From Clostridia bacterium (GTDB taxonomy: Bacteria > Bacillota > Clostridia > Oscillospirales > Acutalibacteraceae): a DNA stretch of 60,358 bases. This document shows positions 20,600-32,039 of the stretch, one piece after another (within the stretch, counting starts at the first letter, position 1; each line of letters begins with the position of its first letter). The stretch lies in assembly GCA_017443805.1 (NCBI GenBank), contig JAFSXY010000089.1, forward strand, positions 1-60,358. Reading direction: 5' to 3'. The translations under genes were made by a program, and so were the position numbers. The notes under the pieces were generated by a model. It worked only from the letters and a program-made list of their open reading frames with translations, was not told the origin of the DNA and made no database searches.

Positions 20600-22270
20600 T
20601 TACTGAATTCTGCTCAGGAAAAATTCCCGTTTTTCAGGCGTATCCAGAGAATGCACCGGCTTGACCTGCCCGGCGGATGCGCCGAGCGAAACGCAGCGTT
20701 CGGCCCAGGCCGCATGGGTGCCGGGCGCCTGCTTCTGCACGATCAGCCGGTCGATAAAGCTTTTTTCGCGCTGGCCGACGTAGCGCTTGTTGCATTGCCC
20801 CATATAATCCTCGAGTTCGTCGATACAGGCGTCCCAGTCGATATCGGCGTCGCTTTCCACCACAAGAGAATAGCGGTTCGGGTGCACGCTTTCATCCTGA
20901 TAGAAATACCAGTTATCGATGGTAACGCCGTGCGCTTTCCCGAACATATCGATCGTGGTACGGGCGTCCTCCTCGCTGAATTTCTCACCGGCGATATTAA
21001 ACAGCTGGCCCTTGCGGTAAACAAAAGAGATCAGCGGGCACGCGCCGCAAAAGCCCCTTACTTCAAGCACGTCTTTCAAATGGTAGCGGTAAAGACCGGC
21101 CTGCGTTGTGATCAGGATCTCGTATTTTTCACCGACCTGGAGCTGATCCAGCGTGAGCGCCGTGCCGCCGTCGTTGCCGCTGCGAATAAACTCATAAAAA
21201 CAGCTGTCGGTCAAAAGCTGCATATCGGTCGTTTCGAGCTGCGGAACAGCTGCGACAAGCCCTTCAGACGCGCCGTAGATGGAAAAATCGAACGGGATCC
21301 CCTGCGCAAGGGACCGCACGTATTCCGCCGCGGACTGAAAGGATGCATTGCCGATACTGCAGATCACGGCCAAATTGGGCCAAATGCGCTTAAACAGCGT
21401 TTCATCAAACCCCTGTTCAAACTGCGCGCGCAGATATTTTGCCCGTTCCGGCATGGGGCGGATCCGTTTTATAAGGTCTGCGCGGACCTCCGGCTTCAAC
21501 TCGACGCAGGGGCTTATCTCCCCCTTTTCGATATCGTCCACGATCATCTGCCAGTTCTTTTTCAGATAAGCGAGCTGGATGACGTTGAGACTGAAGAAAA
21601 CCGAGAAAAAGAACGTTACGTCCGGATCCGCAAGCGCCCAGCGGCAGATACAGTAAATATAATCCCCGTCGTGCACATCAAAGAGCCGTCCGGTGGGAAG
21701 CGTCAGGATATAGGGGTAAAAGCGACCGTACTGCCGCGCGCCGATCTCCGCGATATTGCTGCACAGCATGCCGTTGGGCAGTGTTTCGTTTGTCGCGGGA
21801 GAAAGGAAGACGCCGCGGCCGGGACGGTAACGTTTCCCCTGCCGTTTCATTTCCTGCGCGCCGAGCGCCAGCGCGCGCGTCCAGGTATACCGTACGTACG
21901 CCTTTAAGGATGCGCTTGTGGCCGGGATGTATTTGGGCACGCCGGAGGAGCCTGAGGTACGGGAAAAACCCAAAACCTTTGACGAGGTAAGAATATTCTT
22001 TTCACCGTTCTTCATCCGTTCCAGATACGGCGCGTAATCCTCGTAGACGGATATGGGCACGTTCTTACGGAAATCCTCGATCGAACGGATCTCGGAAAAG
22101 TGATGGGCCCTGCCGAATTCCGTATTTTTATTTGCGCGGATGATTTTTTTAAGAAGCGCGGCGTTTTGTTCCATAGGTGCACGGGACGAACGCGCCAGTC
22201 TTTTCAGGCTGCAGTTCCCCTTAATCACCATGATCCGCATGGCTGCGCGGTTTAATAGCTTGTGTTCCAT
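20600..22270 (-). CDS. GH3-auxin-responsive-type acyl-adenylating enzyme
   Basis: 556 residues. It belongs to the ANL-like GH3 family (named after auxin-responsive proteins, unrelated to glycosidase family 3), in which plant members such as JAR1 adenylate an acid and link it to an amine. Signatures: an ATP-binding loop SRTSGSSGVPKYIPAT, YGASEGLVAA for adenylate contact, and GLYRYHLKDVLEVRGF before the C-terminal domain, which contains SFVYRKGQLFNIAGEKFSE. Cytoplasmic. In bacteria the substrates are mostly unknown. ATG 22270 with AAGGAC upstream is preferred to the longer frame. It sits between a metallophosphoesterase and the secreted esterase, suggesting a pathway that makes or handles an acylated compound (inference). 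Confidence 0.88.
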   Translation of the reverse strand: MEHKLLNRAAMRIMVIKGNCSLKRLARSSRAPMEQNAALLKKIIRANKNTEFGRAHHFSEIRSIEDFRKNVPISVYEDYAPYLERMKNGEKNILTSSKVLGFSRTSGSSGVPKYIPATSASLKAYVRYTWTRALALGAQEMKRQGKRYRPGRGVFLSPATNETLPNGMLCSNIAEIGARQYGRFYPYILTLPTGRLFDVHDGDYIYCICRWALADPDVTFFFSVFFSLNVIQLAYLKKNWQMIVDDIEKGEISPCVELKPEVRADLIKRIRPMPERAKYLRAQFEQGFDETLFKRIWPNLAVICSIGNASFQSAAEYVRSLAQGIPFDFSIYGASEGLVAAVPQLETTDMQLLTDSCFYEFIRSGNDGGTALTLDQLQVGEKYEILITTQAGLYRYHLKDVLEVRGFCGACPLISFVYRKGQLFNIAGEKFSEEDARTTIDMFGKAHGVTIDNWYFYQDESVHPNRYSLVVESDADIDWDACIDELEDYMGQCNKRYVGQREKSFIDRLIVQKQAPGTHAAWAERCVSLGASAGQVKPVHSLDTPEKREFFLSRIQ

Positions 22271-22311
22271 AAAAATGTCCTTCGATTTGAGAGATAGCAA
22301 TTTATAAACAA

Positions 22312-24801: not shown

Positions 24802-25902
24802 ATGCGCGTGATTTTCAATTTTGCTCTATGGTTCCTCCTTGGGCAAGCGGTGCTGACGGCAGCGCAGTTACCGCTGCGGAAAAAGAAAATGAAGCCCGCG
24901 CTTCGCATCGGGGTGATCGCCGGCAAAGCCGTGCTTGCAGTCGTTCTTGCAGCGCTTGTTTTGGCGGGACCGGTTCAGCTCCGCTTTATACAGCCCTTTA
25001 TGACGGCGCTTTACGCGGCGCTCCTTTCGGATGCTTTGGCCGACGCCGTATACTCCGCCGTTGCGGCCCTCCGGAAAAAAGAACGCCGGTTTTGCGCTGC
25101 CAAAACGCTCAGTCTCGTGTTCGGCATCCTGTTCTTCGTATACGGAACAGTCAATATGGAAACCGTCACGCCGGAATACCGGACGTATACGTCCGACAAG
25201 CTCCAAACCGCGCACACGGTCGTTTTGATCGCCGATCTGCACGTAGGCAGCGCCCAGCCCTTCAGCGTAACGGAAAAAACCGTTGAGGCGGTAAAAGCGC
25301 TGCAGCCCGACGCAACGATCCTGTGCGGCGACATCGTTGACGATTATACGACCGAAGAAGAGATGGAAGCCGTTTTCCGTCTGTTTTCGGATTTTGAAAC
25401 GCCGGTCTATTATGTATACGGCAACCACGACCGCCAGGGCCATGCGGAATACGCGGGCGGGCTGAAATTCACGCAGGCTGCGCTGCAGGCGGCCATGGCG
25501 GAAAACGGCGTAACCGTTTTACAGGATACGTTTGAAGAAATCGCGCCCGATCTGCTGATCCTGGGAAGAGAGGATCTCTCCGAGGGCGAAAACCGGGCGG
25601 ACGTCGGCACGCTGCATAACCCCGCGCCGGAAAAATATCTGATCGTTGCGGATCATCAGCCGACGGCTTTTAAGGACAACATGGCTGTCGGTACGGATCT
25701 GCAGCTTTCCGGCCACACGCATGCCGGACAGCTCTTCCCGCTTCGAGCGCTTTACTCCCTGATCGGCTACTGCAGCGGAGACTATACCGAGAAAAACGCC
25801 GTCATGCACGTCAGCGCCGGCGCCTGCGGCTGGCGGATGCCGTTCCGGACCGACGCGCACTGCAATTACGACGTGATCACGCTGCTGCCCGCGCAGCAAT
25901 AA
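24802..25902 (+). CDS. Membrane metallophosphoesterase, YkuE/YaeI-like
   Basis: 366 residues. The N-terminal 120 residues hold three to four membrane helices (FNFALWFLLGQAVLTAAQL, AVLAVVLAALVLAGPVQL, FMTALYAALLSDALADAVY, LSLVFGILFFVYG); the rest is a calcineurin-like domain with IADLHVGSA, LCGDIVDD, YGNHDRQGH, ADHQPT and SGHTHAGQLFPL. YkuE- and YaeI-type proteins with this layout act on lipid-linked phosphates such as UDP-diacylglucosamine, so a lipid or wall-precursor substrate is likely, by family analogy only. First gene of the plus-strand operon; the HAD gene begins 14 bases after its stop. Confidence 0.87.
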   Translation: MRVIFNFALWFLLGQAVLTAAQLPLRKKKMKPALRIGVIAGKAVLAVVLAALVLAGPVQLRFIQPFMTALYAALLSDALADAVYSAVAALRKKERRFCAAKTLSLVFGILFFVYGTVNMETVTPEYRTYTSDKLQTAHTVVLIADLHVGSAQPFSVTEKTVEAVKALQPDATILCGDIVDDYTTEEEMEAVFRLFSDFETPVYYVYGNHDRQGHAEYAGGLKFTQAALQAAMAENGVTVLQDTFEEIAPDLLILGREDLSEGENRADVGTLHNPAPEKYLIVADHQPTAFKDNMAVGTDLQLSGHTHAGQLFPLRALYSLIGYCSGDYTEKNAVMHVSAGACGWRMPFRTDAHCNYDVITLLPAQQ

Positions 25903-25916
25903 ACAGAGGGAACCGG

Positions 25917-26537
25917 ATGGATACAGATCAAAACAACATAGACACCGTGATTTTCGATATCGGACGCGTGCTGGTGGATTTTTACCCGGAGGACCATCTG
26001 CGCAGCCTCGGCATGGATGAGGAAGCCGTAAAAAAACTGATGCGTATCGTCTTCGGCGAAGACTGGTCGGCCTATGACCGGGGCGACTACCCCACTATGG
26101 CCGCTTTAAAGGCTGCGGTGATCAAAAAACACCCCGCGGATGAGGCGCTTGTACGCCGGGTGCTGCGGCCGGAGCTTGTGCGGATCCACGTTCTGCGGCC
26201 GGACGTCGGCGCGTATCTTGCAGAGCTGAAGGCCCGGGGCTGCCGCGTTTATCTGTTGTCGAACATCGCAAACGAATCCTTTGCATACGTGCGGCAGTTC
26301 CCGTTTTTCAGCCTCGTCGACGGCGGCGTTTTCTCCTTCCGGGAACGCGTTTGCAAACCGGACGCGCGCATTTACCGTATCCTGCTGGACAGGTTCGGCC
26401 TTTCCCCCGCCCGGTGCGTCATGCTGGACGACAATCCCGCAAACATTGCAACGGCACAAAAGCTCGGCGTCCGCGGCGTGCTTTTCACAACGCTTTCCGA
26501 AGCGCGCGCACAGACCGAAGCGCTTTTGCAAGCCTGA
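25917..26537 (+). CDS. HAD-family sugar phosphatase
   Basis: 206 residues, cytoplasmic. Motif I is VIFDIGRVLVDF, where the second catalytic Asp of DxD is replaced by Gly. This is normal in the YihX/HAD-IA group, whose members dephosphorylate glucose-1-phosphate and similar sugars. Motif II YLLSNIANES, motif III Lys in RVCKPDARIY and motif IV VMLDDNPANI are intact. Its place between a phosphoesterase and the signalling pair, with a beta-glucosidase later in the operon, suggests sugar-phosphate handling, but the substrate is unknown. Confidence 0.87.
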   Translation: MDTDQNNIDTVIFDIGRVLVDFYPEDHLRSLGMDEEAVKKLMRIVFGEDWSAYDRGDYPTMAALKAAVIKKHPADEALVRRVLRPELVRIHVLRPDVGAYLAELKARGCRVYLLSNIANESFAYVRQFPFFSLVDGGVFSFRERVCKPDARIYRILLDRFGLSPARCVMLDDNPANIATAQKLGVRGVLFTTLSEARAQTEALLQA

Positions 26538-26589
26538 AGCAACGATTGAATTCGTCAAAAATATCCATTTTCATAAAGGAGGTATTCTT

Positions 26590-27768
26590 TTGTTCCAAAT
26601 CACTACGCAACAGGAAGACAACACTTTGAAAATCGCGCTTTCCGGAAGGATCGACTCCGCAAACGCGGCTGACGCCGAAAAAGCGATCACCGCCGAGACC
26701 GAGGGGTTCGACGGCGAACTGATCCTTGACGCAGCCGGACTGGAATATATCTCCAGCGCCGGCCTGCGCGTGATCCTGCGCTTAAAAAAAGCAAACAAGT
26801 CCACCCGGATCATCAACGCTTCGACGGACGTCTACGAGATTTTCGACATGACCGGCTTTACGGAAATGATGGAGATTTCCAAAGCCTACCGGGAAATCAG
26901 CATCGACGGCTGCGAGGTGATCGGAGAGGGCGCAAACGGCGTCGTCTACCGCATCGACCCGGATACCATCGTAAAGGTATATAAAAACCGCGACGCGCTC
27001 TCGGAGATCCAAAACGAGCGCGAGCTTGCGCGTAAAGCGTTCGTGATGGGCATTCCCACCGCCATCCCCTACGACGTAGTACGGGTCGGGGAGCTTTACG
27101 GTTCCGTTTTCGAGCTGCTCAACGCAAAATCCTTTGCAAAACTGATGATCGCAGATCCCTCCCTGACGGAAACGCTGGCAAAAGAAAGCGCGGAGATCCT
27201 GAAAACCATCCATGCGACCGTCCTGCAGCCGGGCGAGCTGCCGGACAAAAAAGCGGAGGCGTTGGTTTGGGCGGAGTTCTGCAGGGATCATCTGCCCGAC
27301 GAGGTCGGCGAAAAGCTGGTGCGCCTGATGCAGGAGATCCCCGACACGCGCAACATGCTCCACGGCGATTTTCATATCAAAAACATTATGCGGCAGAACA
27401 ATGAAAACCTGCTGATCGACATGGATACCCTCTCAATGGGCCATCCGGTGTTTGAATTTGCGGCGATCTATCTTGCGTACGCCGGTTTTTCCTGTATCGA
27501 CCACAATAACGTAAAGGAATTCCTCGGCATTCCCTACGAGCAGGCGCAGCGCTTTTTGAAAGCGACGCTGCAAGCCTATTTCGGGACCGAAGACGAAGCA
27601 AGGCTGCAGGAGCTTGAAAACAAGGCGGCGATCATCGGCTACGCCCGCATTCTGCGCCGTACCTTCCGCAAGGCAAAAGAAAACGAAGAGTACAAGGCAA
27701 AAATGATCGAATACTGCAAGAAAACGCTTTGCAGCCTTGTGCCGCAGACGGAAAGCCTGTATTTTTAA
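26590..27768 (+). CDS. STAS domain fused to aminoglycoside-phosphotransferase-like kinase
   Basis: 392 residues. Start is TTG 26590, eight bases after a full AAAGGAGG; the frame upstream belongs to the HAD gene region. Residues 1-100 form a STAS domain of the anti-sigma-antagonist type, with the phospho-acceptor region YISSAGLRV (Ser56). Residues 105-390 form a protein-kinase/APH-like fold: glycine loop IGEGANGVVY (111-120), Lys129 in VKVYK, catalytic HGDFHIKN (258-265) and metal site IDMD (276-279). The kinase part resembles TIGR02172, a family of unproven function. The STAS half should be dephosphorylated by the SpoIIE domain and phosphorylated by the HATPase domain of the next gene, which starts 10 bases downstream. 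Target of the kinase half unknown. Confidence 0.85.
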   Translation: MFQITTQQEDNTLKIALSGRIDSANAADAEKAITAETEGFDGELILDAAGLEYISSAGLRVILRLKKANKSTRIINASTDVYEIFDMTGFTEMMEISKAYREISIDGCEVIGEGANGVVYRIDPDTIVKVYKNRDALSEIQNERELARKAFVMGIPTAIPYDVVRVGELYGSVFELLNAKSFAKLMIADPSLTETLAKESAEILKTIHATVLQPGELPDKKAEALVWAEFCRDHLPDEVGEKLVRLMQEIPDTRNMLHGDFHIKNIMRQNNENLLIDMDTLSMGHPVFEFAAIYLAYAGFSCIDHNNVKEFLGIPYEQAQRFLKATLQAYFGTEDEARLQELENKAAIIGYARILRRTFRKAKENEEYKAKMIEYCKKTLCSLVPQTESLYF

Positions 27769-27778
27769 GGAGTTTCCG

Positions 27779-29812
27779 ATGAAACGGTTAAAAATACGGA
27801 ATAATCTTGCATTGAATATCGTCAGTGCGATCATTCTTCTGCTCGTGTTTTTCGGCGTGATTGTCAGCGTGATCGGCTATATCAGCTTTACCGATTCCCT
27901 GGAACGGGAATATACGGATATGGCTTACCGTTCGGCAAATACGGCCGCAACGCTTGTAAACGGCGATCGGATCGATTACTATCTGTCCGCAGGCGAAGAG
28001 GACCCGGATTACAAACTCTCCCAGGATCGCATGGATATCCTGTGCGACAAAATGGACCTCACCCTGATTTACGTGATCAAGGTCGATACGTCCGATTACA
28101 ACAGCTTTGTTTCCGTATTCAATTCCGTCAACAAAAACAACACCCGTTACACACGGTGGGAGGTCGGCCATTTCCGGGAGACGACAAACGAGAGCTACAG
28201 GCAGATCTATAAAGACCTTTACGAAAACGGCAAGGCCTACGGCACGATCTTTCGCGTAAAGGATCTGAACGGCGCCGAACCGCATCTGACGCTTTTGATC
28301 CCGGTAAAAAACAGCGCGGGACAAACAACCGCGGTCCTTTGCGTCCAGCGTCCGATGAACGAGCTGGTCAACGGCCGCAGACCGTACCTTATCAATATCG
28401 TCATCACAACGGTCCTGCTCAGCTTATTTGTCACGGTCTCCGCCGCGGTATACATCCGCCGCCAGTTCGTTTCGCCGCTGAGAAAAGTAATTAATGAAGC
28501 GGACCGTTTCGCAAGGGAAACAACGGCGCCGCTGCAGCCGCTGTCGAATAAGATCAGCCGGATCTCCGAATTGCAGAAGCTGGTCTCCTCCGTAAACACA
28601 ATGGAGACCGATATGCTGCAGTATATCGACAACCTCAAGAACGTGACTGCGGAAAAGCAGCGCATCGGTACGGAGCTGCATATTGCCAGCCGGATCCAGG
28701 AGGCGTCCATTCCCACCATTTTTCCGGCTTACCCGAACAGGAAGGAGTTTAATCTTTACGCATCCATGACGCCCGCCAAAGAAGTCGGCGGCGACTTTTA
28801 CGATTTCTTCCTGATCGACGACGACCACCTTGCGCTCGTCATGGCGGACGTTTCCGGCAAGGGCGTTCCCGCGGCGCTGTTCATGATGGTCACAAAAATC
28901 CTCATCAACGAGCGGACGCTTACAGGCGGCACCCCCGGCGAGATCCTTTCCATCGTCAACAACCGTATCTGCGCGCATAACGACGCGGATATGTTCGTAA
29001 CGGTCTGGCTGGGGATACTCGAGATCTCCACAGGCATCATCACTGCGGCAAACGCCGGACACGACGATCCCGCCGTTTACAGAGCCGACGGCGAATATTC
29101 CATCGTCAAAAACCGGCACGGACCCGTGATCGGCGCCATGGGCGGGATCGCATACCGGGATTTTACCATAGAGCTTCATCCGGGAGATAAGATATTCCTT
29201 TATACGGACGGCGTCCCGGAAGCGACAAATACAGAAAACAAAATGTTCACGATTGAACGGATGCTGGAGGCCCTGAATGAAACAAAACAGATTTCCCCGC
29301 AGGAAACAATGCAAAATATATGGAATCACGTTAACGCTTTTGTCGGCAGCGCGCCGCAGTTCGACGACTTGACGATGCTGTGTCTGCAGTTTAACGGAAA
29401 CGGTACGGAAAAAACACTGACCGTTCCGGCCGCAGCGGAAAAGCTCGGCGACGTCACAGCCTTTATCGACGCGTTTCTGGAAGAGCACGGCTGCCCCATG
29501 AAAACGCAGATGCAGATCGATCTGTCGGCGGAGGAGATCTTTGTCAACATCGCCAACTACGCGTATCCGGATCAGCCCGGCGAGGCCGAGGTCATGATCT
29601 CCGAGGAAAACGGCGTCATAACGCTGAAGTTTGCAGATTGCGGCATTCCCTACGATCCGCTTCAAAAAGAAATGCCGGACACGACGCTTTCCGCCGAGGA
29701 ACGGCAGATCGGCGGGCTGGGGATCTTCCTCGTCAAAAAAAATATGGACGCCGTGGATTACAGATACGAAAACGGCAAAAACATTCTGACCATGAAAAAA
29801 GCGCTTTCATAA
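27779..29812 (+). CDS. Membrane sensor SpoIIE-type phosphatase fused to RsbW-like HATPase
   Basis: 677 residues. Layout: helix 1 (10-35); extracellular sensor (about 36-202), probably a Cache-like fold; helix 2 (203-226); HAMP and coiled linker (227-310); PP2C/SpoIIE phosphatase (about 320-540) with metal Asps at VGGDFYDF (339), MADVSGKG (357), YTDGV (477) and FDDLT (529-530); and a C-terminal serine-kinase HATPase domain (545-677) with N-box DLSAEEIFVNIANYAY, ADCG (G1) and GGLGIFLVK (G2). SpoIIE and RsbW activities are normally opposed and usually on separate proteins. Having both on one receptor lets a signal set the phosphorylation of the STAS partner encoded just upstream. No sigma-factor gene is nearby. 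Confidence 0.88.
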   Translation: MKRLKIRNNLALNIVSAIILLLVFFGVIVSVIGYISFTDSLEREYTDMAYRSANTAATLVNGDRIDYYLSAGEEDPDYKLSQDRMDILCDKMDLTLIYVIKVDTSDYNSFVSVFNSVNKNNTRYTRWEVGHFRETTNESYRQIYKDLYENGKAYGTIFRVKDLNGAEPHLTLLIPVKNSAGQTTAVLCVQRPMNELVNGRRPYLINIVITTVLLSLFVTVSAAVYIRRQFVSPLRKVINEADRFARETTAPLQPLSNKISRISELQKLVSSVNTMETDMLQYIDNLKNVTAEKQRIGTELHIASRIQEASIPTIFPAYPNRKEFNLYASMTPAKEVGGDFYDFFLIDDDHLALVMADVSGKGVPAALFMMVTKILINERTLTGGTPGEILSIVNNRICAHNDADMFVTVWLGILEISTGIITAANAGHDDPAVYRADGEYSIVKNRHGPVIGAMGGIAYRDFTIELHPGDKIFLYTDGVPEATNTENKMFTIERMLEALNETKQISPQETMQNIWNHVNAFVGSAPQFDDLTMLCLQFNGNGTEKTLTVPAAAEKLGDVTAFIDAFLEEHGCPMKTQMQIDLSAEEIFVNIANYAYPDQPGEAEVMISEENGVITLKFADCGIPYDPLQKEMPDTTLSAEERQIGGLGIFLVKKNMDAVDYRYENGKNILTMKKALS

Positions 29813-29849
29813 AATGACTGATCTTTTTTTTGACATTCGGAGCATAAAA

Positions 29850-32039
29850 ATGGAAAAAACCGCTGAACAGCGCGCATTTACGCTGCTGAAACAATTATCG
29901 ACGGACGAAAAGATCTATCAGGTCACGTCCGACATGCTTTTCGATCCGACCGGGGATTACGACGAACGCCGCAATCCCCTTTTCGGTTCCTACCGGAACC
30001 CGGGTCATTTTATGCACTGTCAGAGAACGGCGCCGGCCACACCGGGAGAGGTGACCGCACAGATCAATGAAGATGTGCGCCGCAGCATTTCCGCGCAGCC
30101 GCACAAGATCCCGCCCATTGAAAACGGGGAGGCGCTGCACGGCGCGCAGTGGGGCATGGCGACGAATTTTCCGCAGCCCATCGGCCTTGCCTCCTCCTTT
30201 GACCCCGCGCTGATGGAAAAGGTCGCAAACGTGATCGGCAAAGAGTGCGCCGTTGTGGGCGTGCGGCAGGTTTTTTCGCCGGTGGTCAATCTCACGCGAG
30301 ACTGCCGCTGGGGCAGAACGGTGGAGACCTACGGCGAGGACGTGCGCCTTGTTTCCGATATGGGCGCCGCCATGTGCCGCGGCCTGCAGAAAAACGGCGT
30401 GATCGCCACGCCGAAGCATTTTGCGGACAATTATGCCGCCGGCGGACGGGATTCCAATTACTCCGAAACAAGCGAACGCACCATGCGGGAGGTTTTTCTG
30501 CCGCCCTTCAAAGCCTGCTTTGACGCCGGCGCACAATCCGTGATGGCGGCATATAACGCGTGGGAGGGCGTTCCCTGCTCCTCAAACCGCCGCCTGCTGA
30601 CGCAGATCCTGCGGGAGGAATGGGGGTTTGACGGCTTTGCAGTCTCCGACTATTCCGGCGTGGACGGGATCGCCGAAACGCACCGCTGCGCTTCTTCCGC
30701 CGCCGAAGCAGCCGCCATGGCGCTGAAAGCGGGTCTGGACGTGATTTTGCCCTTCGACCGTTTTCAGACCGTAAAAGAAGCGCTCGAAAAAGGATATCTG
30801 ACCGAAGAAGAGCTGGATAAAAACGTGCTGCGGGTTCTAACGGCGAAATTCCGGCTCGGGCTGTTTGACGATCCCTACCGGGACCCCGCGGCCGCCGACC
30901 GGCTCGTCCGCTGTGACGAACACCGCGCGCTGGCGCTGACGGCTGCGCGCGAGACGATCGTGCTGCTGAAAAACGAAAACATCCTGCCGCTTGCCAAGGC
31001 AAAGCTCAGACGCATCGGCGTGTTCGGCCAAAGCGCAAACCTGATCCCCATCGGCTCCAACTACGCGGGCCCCTACGGCACGCCGTGGCAGGGGGACGAC
31101 GCGCCGACGCCCTTGGAAGCCTTAAAAGCATACGTCGGAGACGCCGCCGAGGTCGTTTACGGCGAGAGCGCCGAGATTGAAACGCTGGCGCAGACCTGCG
31201 ACGTCAATTTGTATTTTACCGCGATCATAGAGGGCGAAGGCGCAGACCGCAGCAATCTGAAGCTGCCCGCGGTCACGGCCCACAAAAACCGCGCCGGCGA
31301 CGGCGGCCTGATCGTGGACGAAGCCGCCCAGGAGATCCGGGAGGATCAGGAACAGTCGATTTTACGGCTGTGCAGAGCAAACCGCAATACGGTCGTCGTC
31401 CTGCAGAACGGCGCGCCGATCGACATGCGCGCATGGATCCGGCATGCGCCTGCCGTCATTGAAGCGTGGTATCCCGGCGAGCAGGGCGCAAAAGCGCTGG
31501 CCGAGATCCTCTTCGGCGAGACAAACCCCTCCGCAAAGCTGCCGATCTGCATTCCGAAATCCGTTGGGCAGCTGCCGCTGTTTTACGCAAACAAGCCCTC
31601 CGGCAGAGGCTATGCCTACTGCGACGACGACGGCAAGCCCCTGTATCCCTTCGGGTTCGGCTTAAGCTATACAAGCTTTTCATTTTCAGACGTTTCACTG
31701 AAAAAAACGGCAAACGGGCTCAAGATCTCCTGCAGCGCGTCCAACACGGGCGCATACGACGGCGCGCAGGTGCTTCAGCTCTACCGCAGCTCCTACGGCT
31801 GTCAGGTCGTACGGCCGGTCAGGGAGCTGGCGGCCTATGCCCGCGTTTTTCTGAAAAAGGGCGAAACAAAGCGCGTAACGCTGTCTCTTGCTACACAGGC
31901 GTTTTTCTACTACAACGCGGAGATGGCATACGGCCTGCACGACGGCGTCCATTCCCTGCTGCTCGGCACGTCGTCCGAGGACTGCTTTGCTTCGTTTGAG
32001 GTAATTGCCCGGGACGGTAAACTCTATATAAAGGAATAA
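29850..32039 (+). CDS. Glycoside hydrolase family 3 beta-glucosidase, no PA14
   Basis: 729 residues, no signal peptide. The GH3 barrel has SRWGRT-type motif CRWGRTVETYGED, ATPKHFADN and nucleophile Asp267 in AVSDYSG. The C-terminal domain has the glycine-rich VLQNGAPID loop and FGFGLSYTSF, and a short fibronectin-III-like tail ends the protein. Expected to release terminal beta-linked glucose or xylose in the cytoplasm. ATG 29850 has CGGAG at good spacing; an ATG at 29814 directly after the preceding stop is a weaker alternative. Last gene of the partner-switch operon, before a strong terminator. Confidence 0.92.
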   Translation: MEKTAEQRAFTLLKQLSTDEKIYQVTSDMLFDPTGDYDERRNPLFGSYRNPGHFMHCQRTAPATPGEVTAQINEDVRRSISAQPHKIPPIENGEALHGAQWGMATNFPQPIGLASSFDPALMEKVANVIGKECAVVGVRQVFSPVVNLTRDCRWGRTVETYGEDVRLVSDMGAAMCRGLQKNGVIATPKHFADNYAAGGRDSNYSETSERTMREVFLPPFKACFDAGAQSVMAAYNAWEGVPCSSNRRLLTQILREEWGFDGFAVSDYSGVDGIAETHRCASSAAEAAAMALKAGLDVILPFDRFQTVKEALEKGYLTEEELDKNVLRVLTAKFRLGLFDDPYRDPAAADRLVRCDEHRALALTAARETIVLLKNENILPLAKAKLRRIGVFGQSANLIPIGSNYAGPYGTPWQGDDAPTPLEALKAYVGDAAEVVYGESAEIETLAQTCDVNLYFTAIIEGEGADRSNLKLPAVTAHKNRAGDGGLIVDEAAQEIREDQEQSILRLCRANRNTVVVLQNGAPIDMRAWIRHAPAVIEAWYPGEQGAKALAEILFGETNPSAKLPICIPKSVGQLPLFYANKPSGRGYAYCDDDGKPLYPFGFGLSYTSFSFSDVSLKKTANGLKISCSASNTGAYDGAQVLQLYRSSYGCQVVRPVRELAAYARVFLKKGETKRVTLSLATQAFFYYNAEMAYGLHDGVHSLLLGTSSEDCFASFEVIARDGKLYIKE

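Follow-up and report, generated by a model that had tools for sequence, protein, structure and literature searches.

A STAS-kinase fusion next to a SpoIIE-HATPase membrane sensor in a Clostridia bacterium: a probable partner-switching module that may act on an enzyme

Two adjacent genes in a 60,358-nucleotide stretch of DNA from a Clostridia bacterium of the Acutalibacteraceae (assembly GCA_017443805.1, contig JAFSXY010000089.1; the whole stretch is called the window below) encode domains that are known from bacterial partner switching, a mechanism familiar chiefly from the control of spore and stress genes. The product of the first gene carries a STAS domain with an acceptor serine, Ser56, joined to an intact kinase of the APH type (STAS-kinase), whereas the second gene, which begins 10 bases further on, encodes a membrane sensor that ends in both a SpoIIE phosphatase and an RsbW-type HATPase. 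Both architectures had been read from the letters of the DNA alone (the original prediction) and are confirmed by Pfam matches to STAS (E value 4.9e-12, residues 4-100) and APH (6.8e-16, residues 109-340) in the first protein, and to SpoIIE (6.3e-49, residues 347-538) and HATPase_c_2 (2.8e-23, residues 549-674) in the second. In many related genomes, these parts are found linked or in rearranged form, suggesting that the switch controls an enzyme and not a transcription factor.

The STAS-kinase scores 59.2 bits against the APH model (PF01636; gathering cut-off, 23.2), and the catalytic HxDxxxxN motif and the Asp of IDMD are both present. Membership of TIGR02172, which had been proposed for the kinase, fails on score (115.5 bits vs. 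a curated cut-off of 228.2); the kinase is thus related to this model but lies outside it. No mention of TIGR02172 by name was found in the open-access literature searched, nor was any description of a STAS-APH fusion, including in the available portions of PMC8256260 and PMC1262709. AlphaFold models reach a mean predicted local distance difference test score of 94.2 for the window protein and 88.7 for a relative with a fused HATPase (L108). In the predicted model, the STAS part adopts an RsbV-like fold (structure matches include 6m36 and 1th8), and the structures that match the kinase part best are for the most part kinases of small molecules. The kinase part also shows weak similarity to RIO, Bud32, and PRPK and has a glycine loop of the form GxGxxGxVYR. 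In the second protein, the linker that follows the sensor part gives a HAMP match under the cut-off (E 0.063), and a search with the sensor region as the query returned eight sensor matches, the window's own among them. A solved relative of the phosphatase part is Rv1364c of Mycobacterium tuberculosis (PDB 3ke6), although the match spans residues 327-493 only. The features of the locus are collected in Table 1.

Table 1. Features of the two-gene locus and of the neighbouring genes, with positions in the window
Feature	Position	Strand	Remarks
STAS-kinase gene	26590-27768	+	TTG start; STAS joined to APH-type kinase
Ribosome binding site of the STAS-kinase gene, AAAGGAGGT	26575-26583	+	read from sequence
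STAS domain, residues 1-100	26590-26889	+	acceptor Ser56 in YISSAGLR
APH/choline-kinase-type kinase domain, residues 101-392	26890-27765	+	
Ribosome binding site, AAGGAG	27767-27772	+	overlaps stop codon of the STAS-kinase gene; read from sequence
Sensor gene (membrane sensor, SpoIIE, RsbW-type HATPase)	27779-29812	+	10-base gap after the STAS-kinase gene
Membrane sensor part	27779-28738	+	two hydrophobic stretches flanking an extracytoplasmic region (by eye), then a weak HAMP-like linker
SpoIIE (PP2C-type) phosphatase domain	28817-29392	+	
RsbW/SpoIIAB-type HATPase (serine kinase) domain	29423-29800	+	
Calcineurin-like metallophosphoesterase	24802-25902	+	opens the co-directional run; possible, non-conserved part; Metallophos 3.5e-13
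HAD-family hydrolase	25917-26537	+	possible, non-conserved part; HAD Hydrolase 6.1e-16
Glycoside hydrolase family 3 gene	29814-32039	+	starts 1 base past the sensor gene; non-conserved; Glyco_hydro_3 5.7e-68

Relatives of the STAS-kinase were gathered from several samples. A search of 150 genomes of the family found it in 18, including the window's own and one copy cut by a contig edge, and 12 further genomes matched in one part only. The sole genome of the same genus in that search (G076) gave no STAS-kinase match. From a scan of a genome collection, the best 80 of 576 relatives were added, under titles that name Clostridia, Oscillospiraceae, Lachnospiraceae, Erysipelotrichaceae, Treponema, Spirochaetaceae, and others. 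Of the resulting 98 loci, 97 are unique (L059 lies on the same contig as L040 and was removed). It should be noted that 79 of the 97 were chosen by the patterns L[LV]IDMDTL or L[EDT]YISSAGL and belong to those best 80 relatives; residue counts over them are therefore partly true by construction, and close relatives are favoured. Domains in the loci were called with profiles derived from those of the window, and Pfam was used to check examples only. Matches were sparser in the wider samples at the thresholds used (5 of 398 genomes of the phylum and 24 of 391 of the class); the class sample comprises 23 regions for linkage and 24 sequences for the serine count. Viral contigs scanned with the STAS-kinase contained no relative.

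The residues expected of a working switch are kept. In a 17-row alignment of the window protein with 16 family relatives (the copy cut by a contig edge was left out), Ser55, Ser56, H258, D260, H262, N265, D277, and D279 are invariant, and Gly259 of the HGD motif is present in at least 90% of rows. Outside this alignment, Ser56 is found in 23 of the 24 class-sample sequences, the remaining one being truncated, and in 96 of the partly pattern-picked 97 loci, with a gap in the other. Frames that consist of STAS alone contain the SSxG motif in 50 of 53 cases. The ATP sites of the HATPases are similarly preserved: in sensor-fused copies, the N-box Glu/Asn and the glycine boxes occur in 28/28 and the G1 Asp in 27/28, and the ATP-site residues are present, depending on the site, in 31-32 of 32 copies fused to STAS-APH and in 19-21 of 21 stand-alone copies. 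At the metal-binding Asp sites of SpoIIE, 44-50 of 51 copies retain the residue, depending on the site, with gaps scored as misses. As judged from these motifs, the HATPase, SpoIIE, and STAS domains fit a working kinase-phosphatase pair that would act on STAS.

The original prediction had named the lack of a conserved gene pairing as grounds for abandoning it, and the pairing proved to be conserved. A HATPase on the same strand, either fused to the STAS-kinase or within 3 kb of it (MATE-linked copies excluded), is present at 73 of the 97 loci, and a same-strand SpoIIE within 6 kb at 45; at least one of the two is linked at 76 loci and both at 42. Among the 62 loci with at least 3 kb of sequence on both sides, the corresponding numbers are 47, 29, 50, and 26. 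At 32 of the 97 loci, the HATPase is joined directly to the C-terminal end of the STAS-kinase, a fusion that recurs in the class and phylum samples, and at the remaining linked loci it has its own gene or is carried on the sensor, the latter as in the window. The samples that were not selected by pattern agree, with a HATPase or SpoIIE at 14 of 18 family loci (in L041 on the opposite strand) and in 12 of 23 class regions. One locus of the phylum sample (L141) has a full set consisting of free STAS, SpoIIE, STAS-kinase-HATPase, and a PHP phosphoesterase. With four SpoIIE genes in the 2.2 Mb of the window's assembly, simple arithmetic gives a chance of approximately 2% that a random gene has a SpoIIE gene within 6 kb; as this assembly has only these four and three STAS domains, and as the pairing recurs in dozens of loci, it is not due to chance.

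Further parts recur around the STAS-kinase. A free STAS gene lies within 6 kb at 48 of the 97 loci, a RelA/SpoT-type HD domain within 1 kb at 32 (in three of these fused to SpoIIE), and a PHP phosphoesterase within 3 kb at 25; 15 loci have a MATE transporter, which in most cases ends in a HATPase-like domain. By sequence, the HD protein resembles small alarmone hydrolases as well as the hydrolase portion of Rel enzymes (HD_4 6.1e-22 for L074), and its metal ligands (H, HD, D) are kept in 40-41 of 41 copies. For a PHP example, the best family match is 3',5'-nucleoside bisphosphate phosphatase, at 98 bits against a cut-off of 400, and the solved relatives include 2yb1. Two genomes of the same class (L138:5586-7100 and L139:5980-7602) encode a protein in which HD takes the position of STAS and is joined directly to this APH-type kinase. 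In spirochaetes, a SpoIIE-HD fusion lies directly upstream of the STAS-kinase, with no HATPase found nearby (L119:6588-7979, L130:5212-7986, and L134:6614-7978). In the MATE proteins (L093:3523-5280 and others; 16 copies), the glycine boxes of the C-terminal HATPase-like domain are degenerate, and this domain is perhaps a STAS-binding tail that regulates transport. A GH3-family enzyme of the acyl-adenylating type with a C-terminal STAS domain lies near one STAS-kinase (L077:11463-13526), and the window has a gene of this type without STAS at 20600-22300 on the minus strand, approximately 4 kb from its STAS-kinase; no others were found in the loci examined.

The HD and PHP neighbours never occur together (0/97 loci and 0/23 class regions). 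Counted locus by locus, this gives a Fisher p of 1e-5 for the 97 loci and of 1.3e-4 for the 72 with more flank, but the signal is lost once kinship is counted, since on a kinase tree the two differ oppositely in a mean of only 1.5 of 10 independent pairs, which is not significant. The tree, made with a quick method, covers 76 of the 97 loci (loci flanked by less than 1.2 kb on either side were dropped, as was the broken L074), and 28 of its 73 inner branches are weak. On the best tree, the presence of HD changes at least 17 times, that of PHP 13 times, and HATPase fusion six times, which indicates that the parts have been reshuffled again and again and yet stay together. A second apparent rule, that HD never accompanies a fused HATPase, holds in the first set (0/97) but is broken by L173 and L176 of the class sample.

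The window's own operon has neither an HD nor a PHP gene; it offers only a metallophosphoesterase and a HAD enzyme. These two and the glycoside hydrolase had been listed originally as members of the operon, and they are indeed present, but they are ruled out as general parts of the module. At the 96 other loci, a gene similar to the metallophosphoesterase occurs once (L040, on the opposite strand and 60% identical), and genes similar to the HAD hydrolase and to the glycoside hydrolase (L069 and L100) twice each. The nearest relative in the family search (L038, 75% identical) has an HD gene directly upstream. The assembly as a whole contains one RelA/SpoT-type HD match, within an 805-residue frame, and three PHP matches, all on other contigs, 31-42% identical, and unlinked to the locus.

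The assembly (2.2 Mb, 85.8% complete) contains three STAS domains, four SpoIIE domains, and two HATPase_c_2 matches over the cut-off. One STAS and one HATPase lie together with a sigma gene in a spoIIA-like operon on contig C139; as that HATPase belongs to this operon, the HATPase of the window is the only other partner-switch kinase found in the assembly. Two STAS proteins are candidate substrates for it, namely the STAS-kinase itself and a free STAS encoded on contig C70. The free STAS gene is followed by an HD-CE-domain gene (L055:6120-7501 in the window's genome, G000) and is a possible second target of the window HATPase. The absence of a sigma gene near the locus, as originally stated, is upheld, as the seven Sigma70_r2 matches of the assembly all fall on contigs other than that of the window (C20). 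Among the sigma-70 region 2 matches listed for the other 17 genomes, only two are found within 10 kb of a STAS-kinase gene, one in G074 and one in G015; both are on the opposite strand, and their distances differ. Inspection by eye of the recurrent neighbours of the 97 loci, on which the sigma model was not run, revealed no sigma gene.

Within this context, it appears rather probable that the two genes form a partner-switching module with an enzyme output, in which the phosphorylation of Ser56 gates the attached kinase. The HATPase of the sensor would phosphorylate Ser56 in the STAS domain of the STAS-kinase, and the SpoIIE domain of the sensor would strip the phosphate when a signal is present, steps that are likely given the domain families and their intact motifs. 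Depending on the state of Ser56, the HATPase would then hold the STAS domain or leave it free, and the attached kinase would be switched accordingly. From the fusion alone, we infer that the STAS state changes the activity of the output enzyme, as in SiaABCD. The APH-type kinase most likely acts on a small molecule. In relatives, a free STAS protein may also be served by this HATPase, and a phosphohydrolase frequently accompanies the kinase. The original prediction thus stands in outline (conserved pairing, kept residues, and no sigma factor on the contig), but it was too narrow: a two-protein module with a single receptor does not accommodate the free STAS genes, one of them in the same genome, and neither the HD/PHP hydrolases nor the MATE-HATPase proteins were foreseen.

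Several observations weigh against a module of this kind. In 11 of the 23 class regions, the STAS-kinase has no linked HATPase or SpoIIE; these regions score 298-392 bits against the profile of the 17-row alignment, compared with at least 577 bits for linked ones (the exception being L183, linked at 396 bits), and form a divergent group in which the serine is still kept wherever it is covered. L142 of the phylum sample, whose STAS-kinase frame stops prematurely, likewise lacks a linked partner, and 13 of the 97 loci lack a HATPase, SpoIIE, or HD within 6 kb, several of them at contig edges. In the three spirochaete loci, where SpoIIE is fused to HD, no HATPase was found. It follows that a STAS-kinase can occur with no regulator linked to it, in which case any regulators would have to be encoded at other places in the genome. 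Moreover, because the window's assembly is 85.8% complete, a partner may be missing from it. Two related arrangements should be mentioned here: in the divergent group, one region holds two STAS-kinase genes approximately 1 kb apart with no linked HATPase or SpoIIE (L186:7051-10412), and in another genome (G395, contig C2, L140:3806-6530), a kinase domain without STAS or HD lies tail to tail with a sensor-SpoIIE gene, with approximately 58 bases between the frames.

The recurrent hydrolases raise a more specific possibility, namely that the module gates half of a new nucleotide-phosphorylation cycle, in which the STAS-kinase would make a phosphorylated nucleotide-like messenger or cofactor, the paired HD or PHP hydrolase would remove it, and the membrane sensor would control the process by partner switching. 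This idea draws on the presence of either hydrolase, but never both, beside the kinase, on the fusions of HD to the kinase and to SpoIIE, and on the many changes of HD on the tree. It is countered by the loss of significance of the HD/PHP exclusivity when kinship is considered and by the window's operon, which is without either hydrolase, and it has only a small chance of being correct. Since the small alarmone hydrolase XccSAH hydrolyses (p)ppGpp species, pppApp, and NADPH (PMC9765508), a nucleotide-like substrate of the kinase is a testable guess and no more.

Alternatively, free STAS proteins might be the true substrates of the HATPase and SpoIIE, and the STAS domain of the kinase might serve only to dock the kinase to the sensor, with no gating by phosphorylation. 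The abundance of free STAS genes near the STAS-kinase, the copy on contig C70, and the SSxG motif of STAS-alone frames are what such an arrangement would lead one to expect. However, Ser56 of the STAS-kinase is conserved as strictly as the serine of free STAS, and it is to the STAS-kinase that the HATPase is fused, a fusion to free STAS not being seen in these loci. We therefore regard pure docking as unlikely. Quite improbable is a metabolic role in a sugar operon, in which the APH domain would phosphorylate a sugar freed by the adjoining glycoside hydrolase, with STAS as a minor regulator. The single base that separates the hydrolase gene from the sensor gene and the small-molecule substrates of APH-fold enzymes agree with this role, but the hydrolase is rare at other loci, whereas HATPase, SpoIIE, STAS, HD, and PHP recur. 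It is very improbable that the locus is a conventional anti-sigma switch whose target sigma factor is encoded at a distance and for which the kinase is an accessory. Although the HATPase and SpoIIE look canonical and the assembly has seven sigma-70 region 2 genes, none is on the window's contig, and the only two listed matches within 10 kb in the other genomes are on the opposite strand. Least probable of all is that the APH domain is a protein kinase acting on STAS (its own or a free one), which would place two kinases and one phosphatase on the same serine: the glycine loop, intact catalytic residues, and weak RIO/Bud32/PRPK similarity would allow it, but the structural matches are mostly to small-molecule kinases, and the APH part is also fused to HD without STAS.

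If phosphorylation of the STAS domain does gate the attached kinase, partner switching would be a more general means of controlling enzymes from the membrane, present at dozens of loci in Clostridia, Erysipelotrichaceae, and, in part, spirochaetes. The pairing with HD or PHP points to a substrate class for the kinase, and the natural fusions (STAS-kinase-HATPase, HD-kinase, and SpoIIE-HD) would allow a direct test of the idea within one polypeptide.

Partner switching is a textbook mechanism for the control of sigma factors, and a few enzyme outputs are known (diguanylate cyclases). The Bacillus systems RsbU/RsbV/RsbW and SpoIIE/SpoIIAA/SpoIIAB use the same three domain families and share the RsbV-like STAS fold, but there the components are separate and the output is a sigma factor, whereas here the domains are fused. 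Rv1364c also carries RsbW-type and STAS domains and is not known to have an APH kinase. The Bacillus proteins are described as separate, with a sigma-factor output, in PMC10120452. The same article reports that, in Vibrio fischeri, SypE controls SypA via Ser56 and that SypA acts downstream. As proposed for the window's sensor, a single protein with a serine kinase and a serine phosphatase sets the phosphorylation of Ser56 of a STAS protein; however, SypA is a bare STAS protein whose further partner is not known in that account, and SypE has a receiver domain instead of a membrane sensor. The Anabaena protein all4160 joins STAS to an enzyme domain as well (PMC8256260), but the enzyme is a glycosyltransferase, and no SpoIIE-HATPase partner is mentioned in the text available. 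The HD neighbours and HD-kinase fusions resemble the small alarmone hydrolases MESH1 and XccSAH in sequence and in their metal ligands; unlike here, no adjoining STAS-kinase is mentioned for those enzymes in the available text of PMC9765508, and the window's operon has no HD gene. A parallel in logic is SiaABCD of Pseudomonas aeruginosa, in which the phosphorylation of SiaC is set by SiaA and SiaB (PMC7647112) and the diguanylate cyclase SiaD is activated by SiaC (PMC8457831). Among NCBIfam models, the window's sensor matches SiaA best, although at 59.1 bits it is far under the cut-off of 700. Like the module proposed here, SiaABCD has a PP2C phosphatase (SiaA), a kinase (SiaB), an antagonist-like protein (SiaC), and an output that is an enzyme and not a sigma factor. 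In SiaABCD, SiaC and SiaD are separate and the output makes cyclic di-GMP, whereas here STAS is fused to the APH kinase and the phosphatase to the HATPase. Partner switching onto an enzyme is therefore already known, and what differs here is the STAS-APH kinase fusion and its frequent association with HD or PHP hydrolases.

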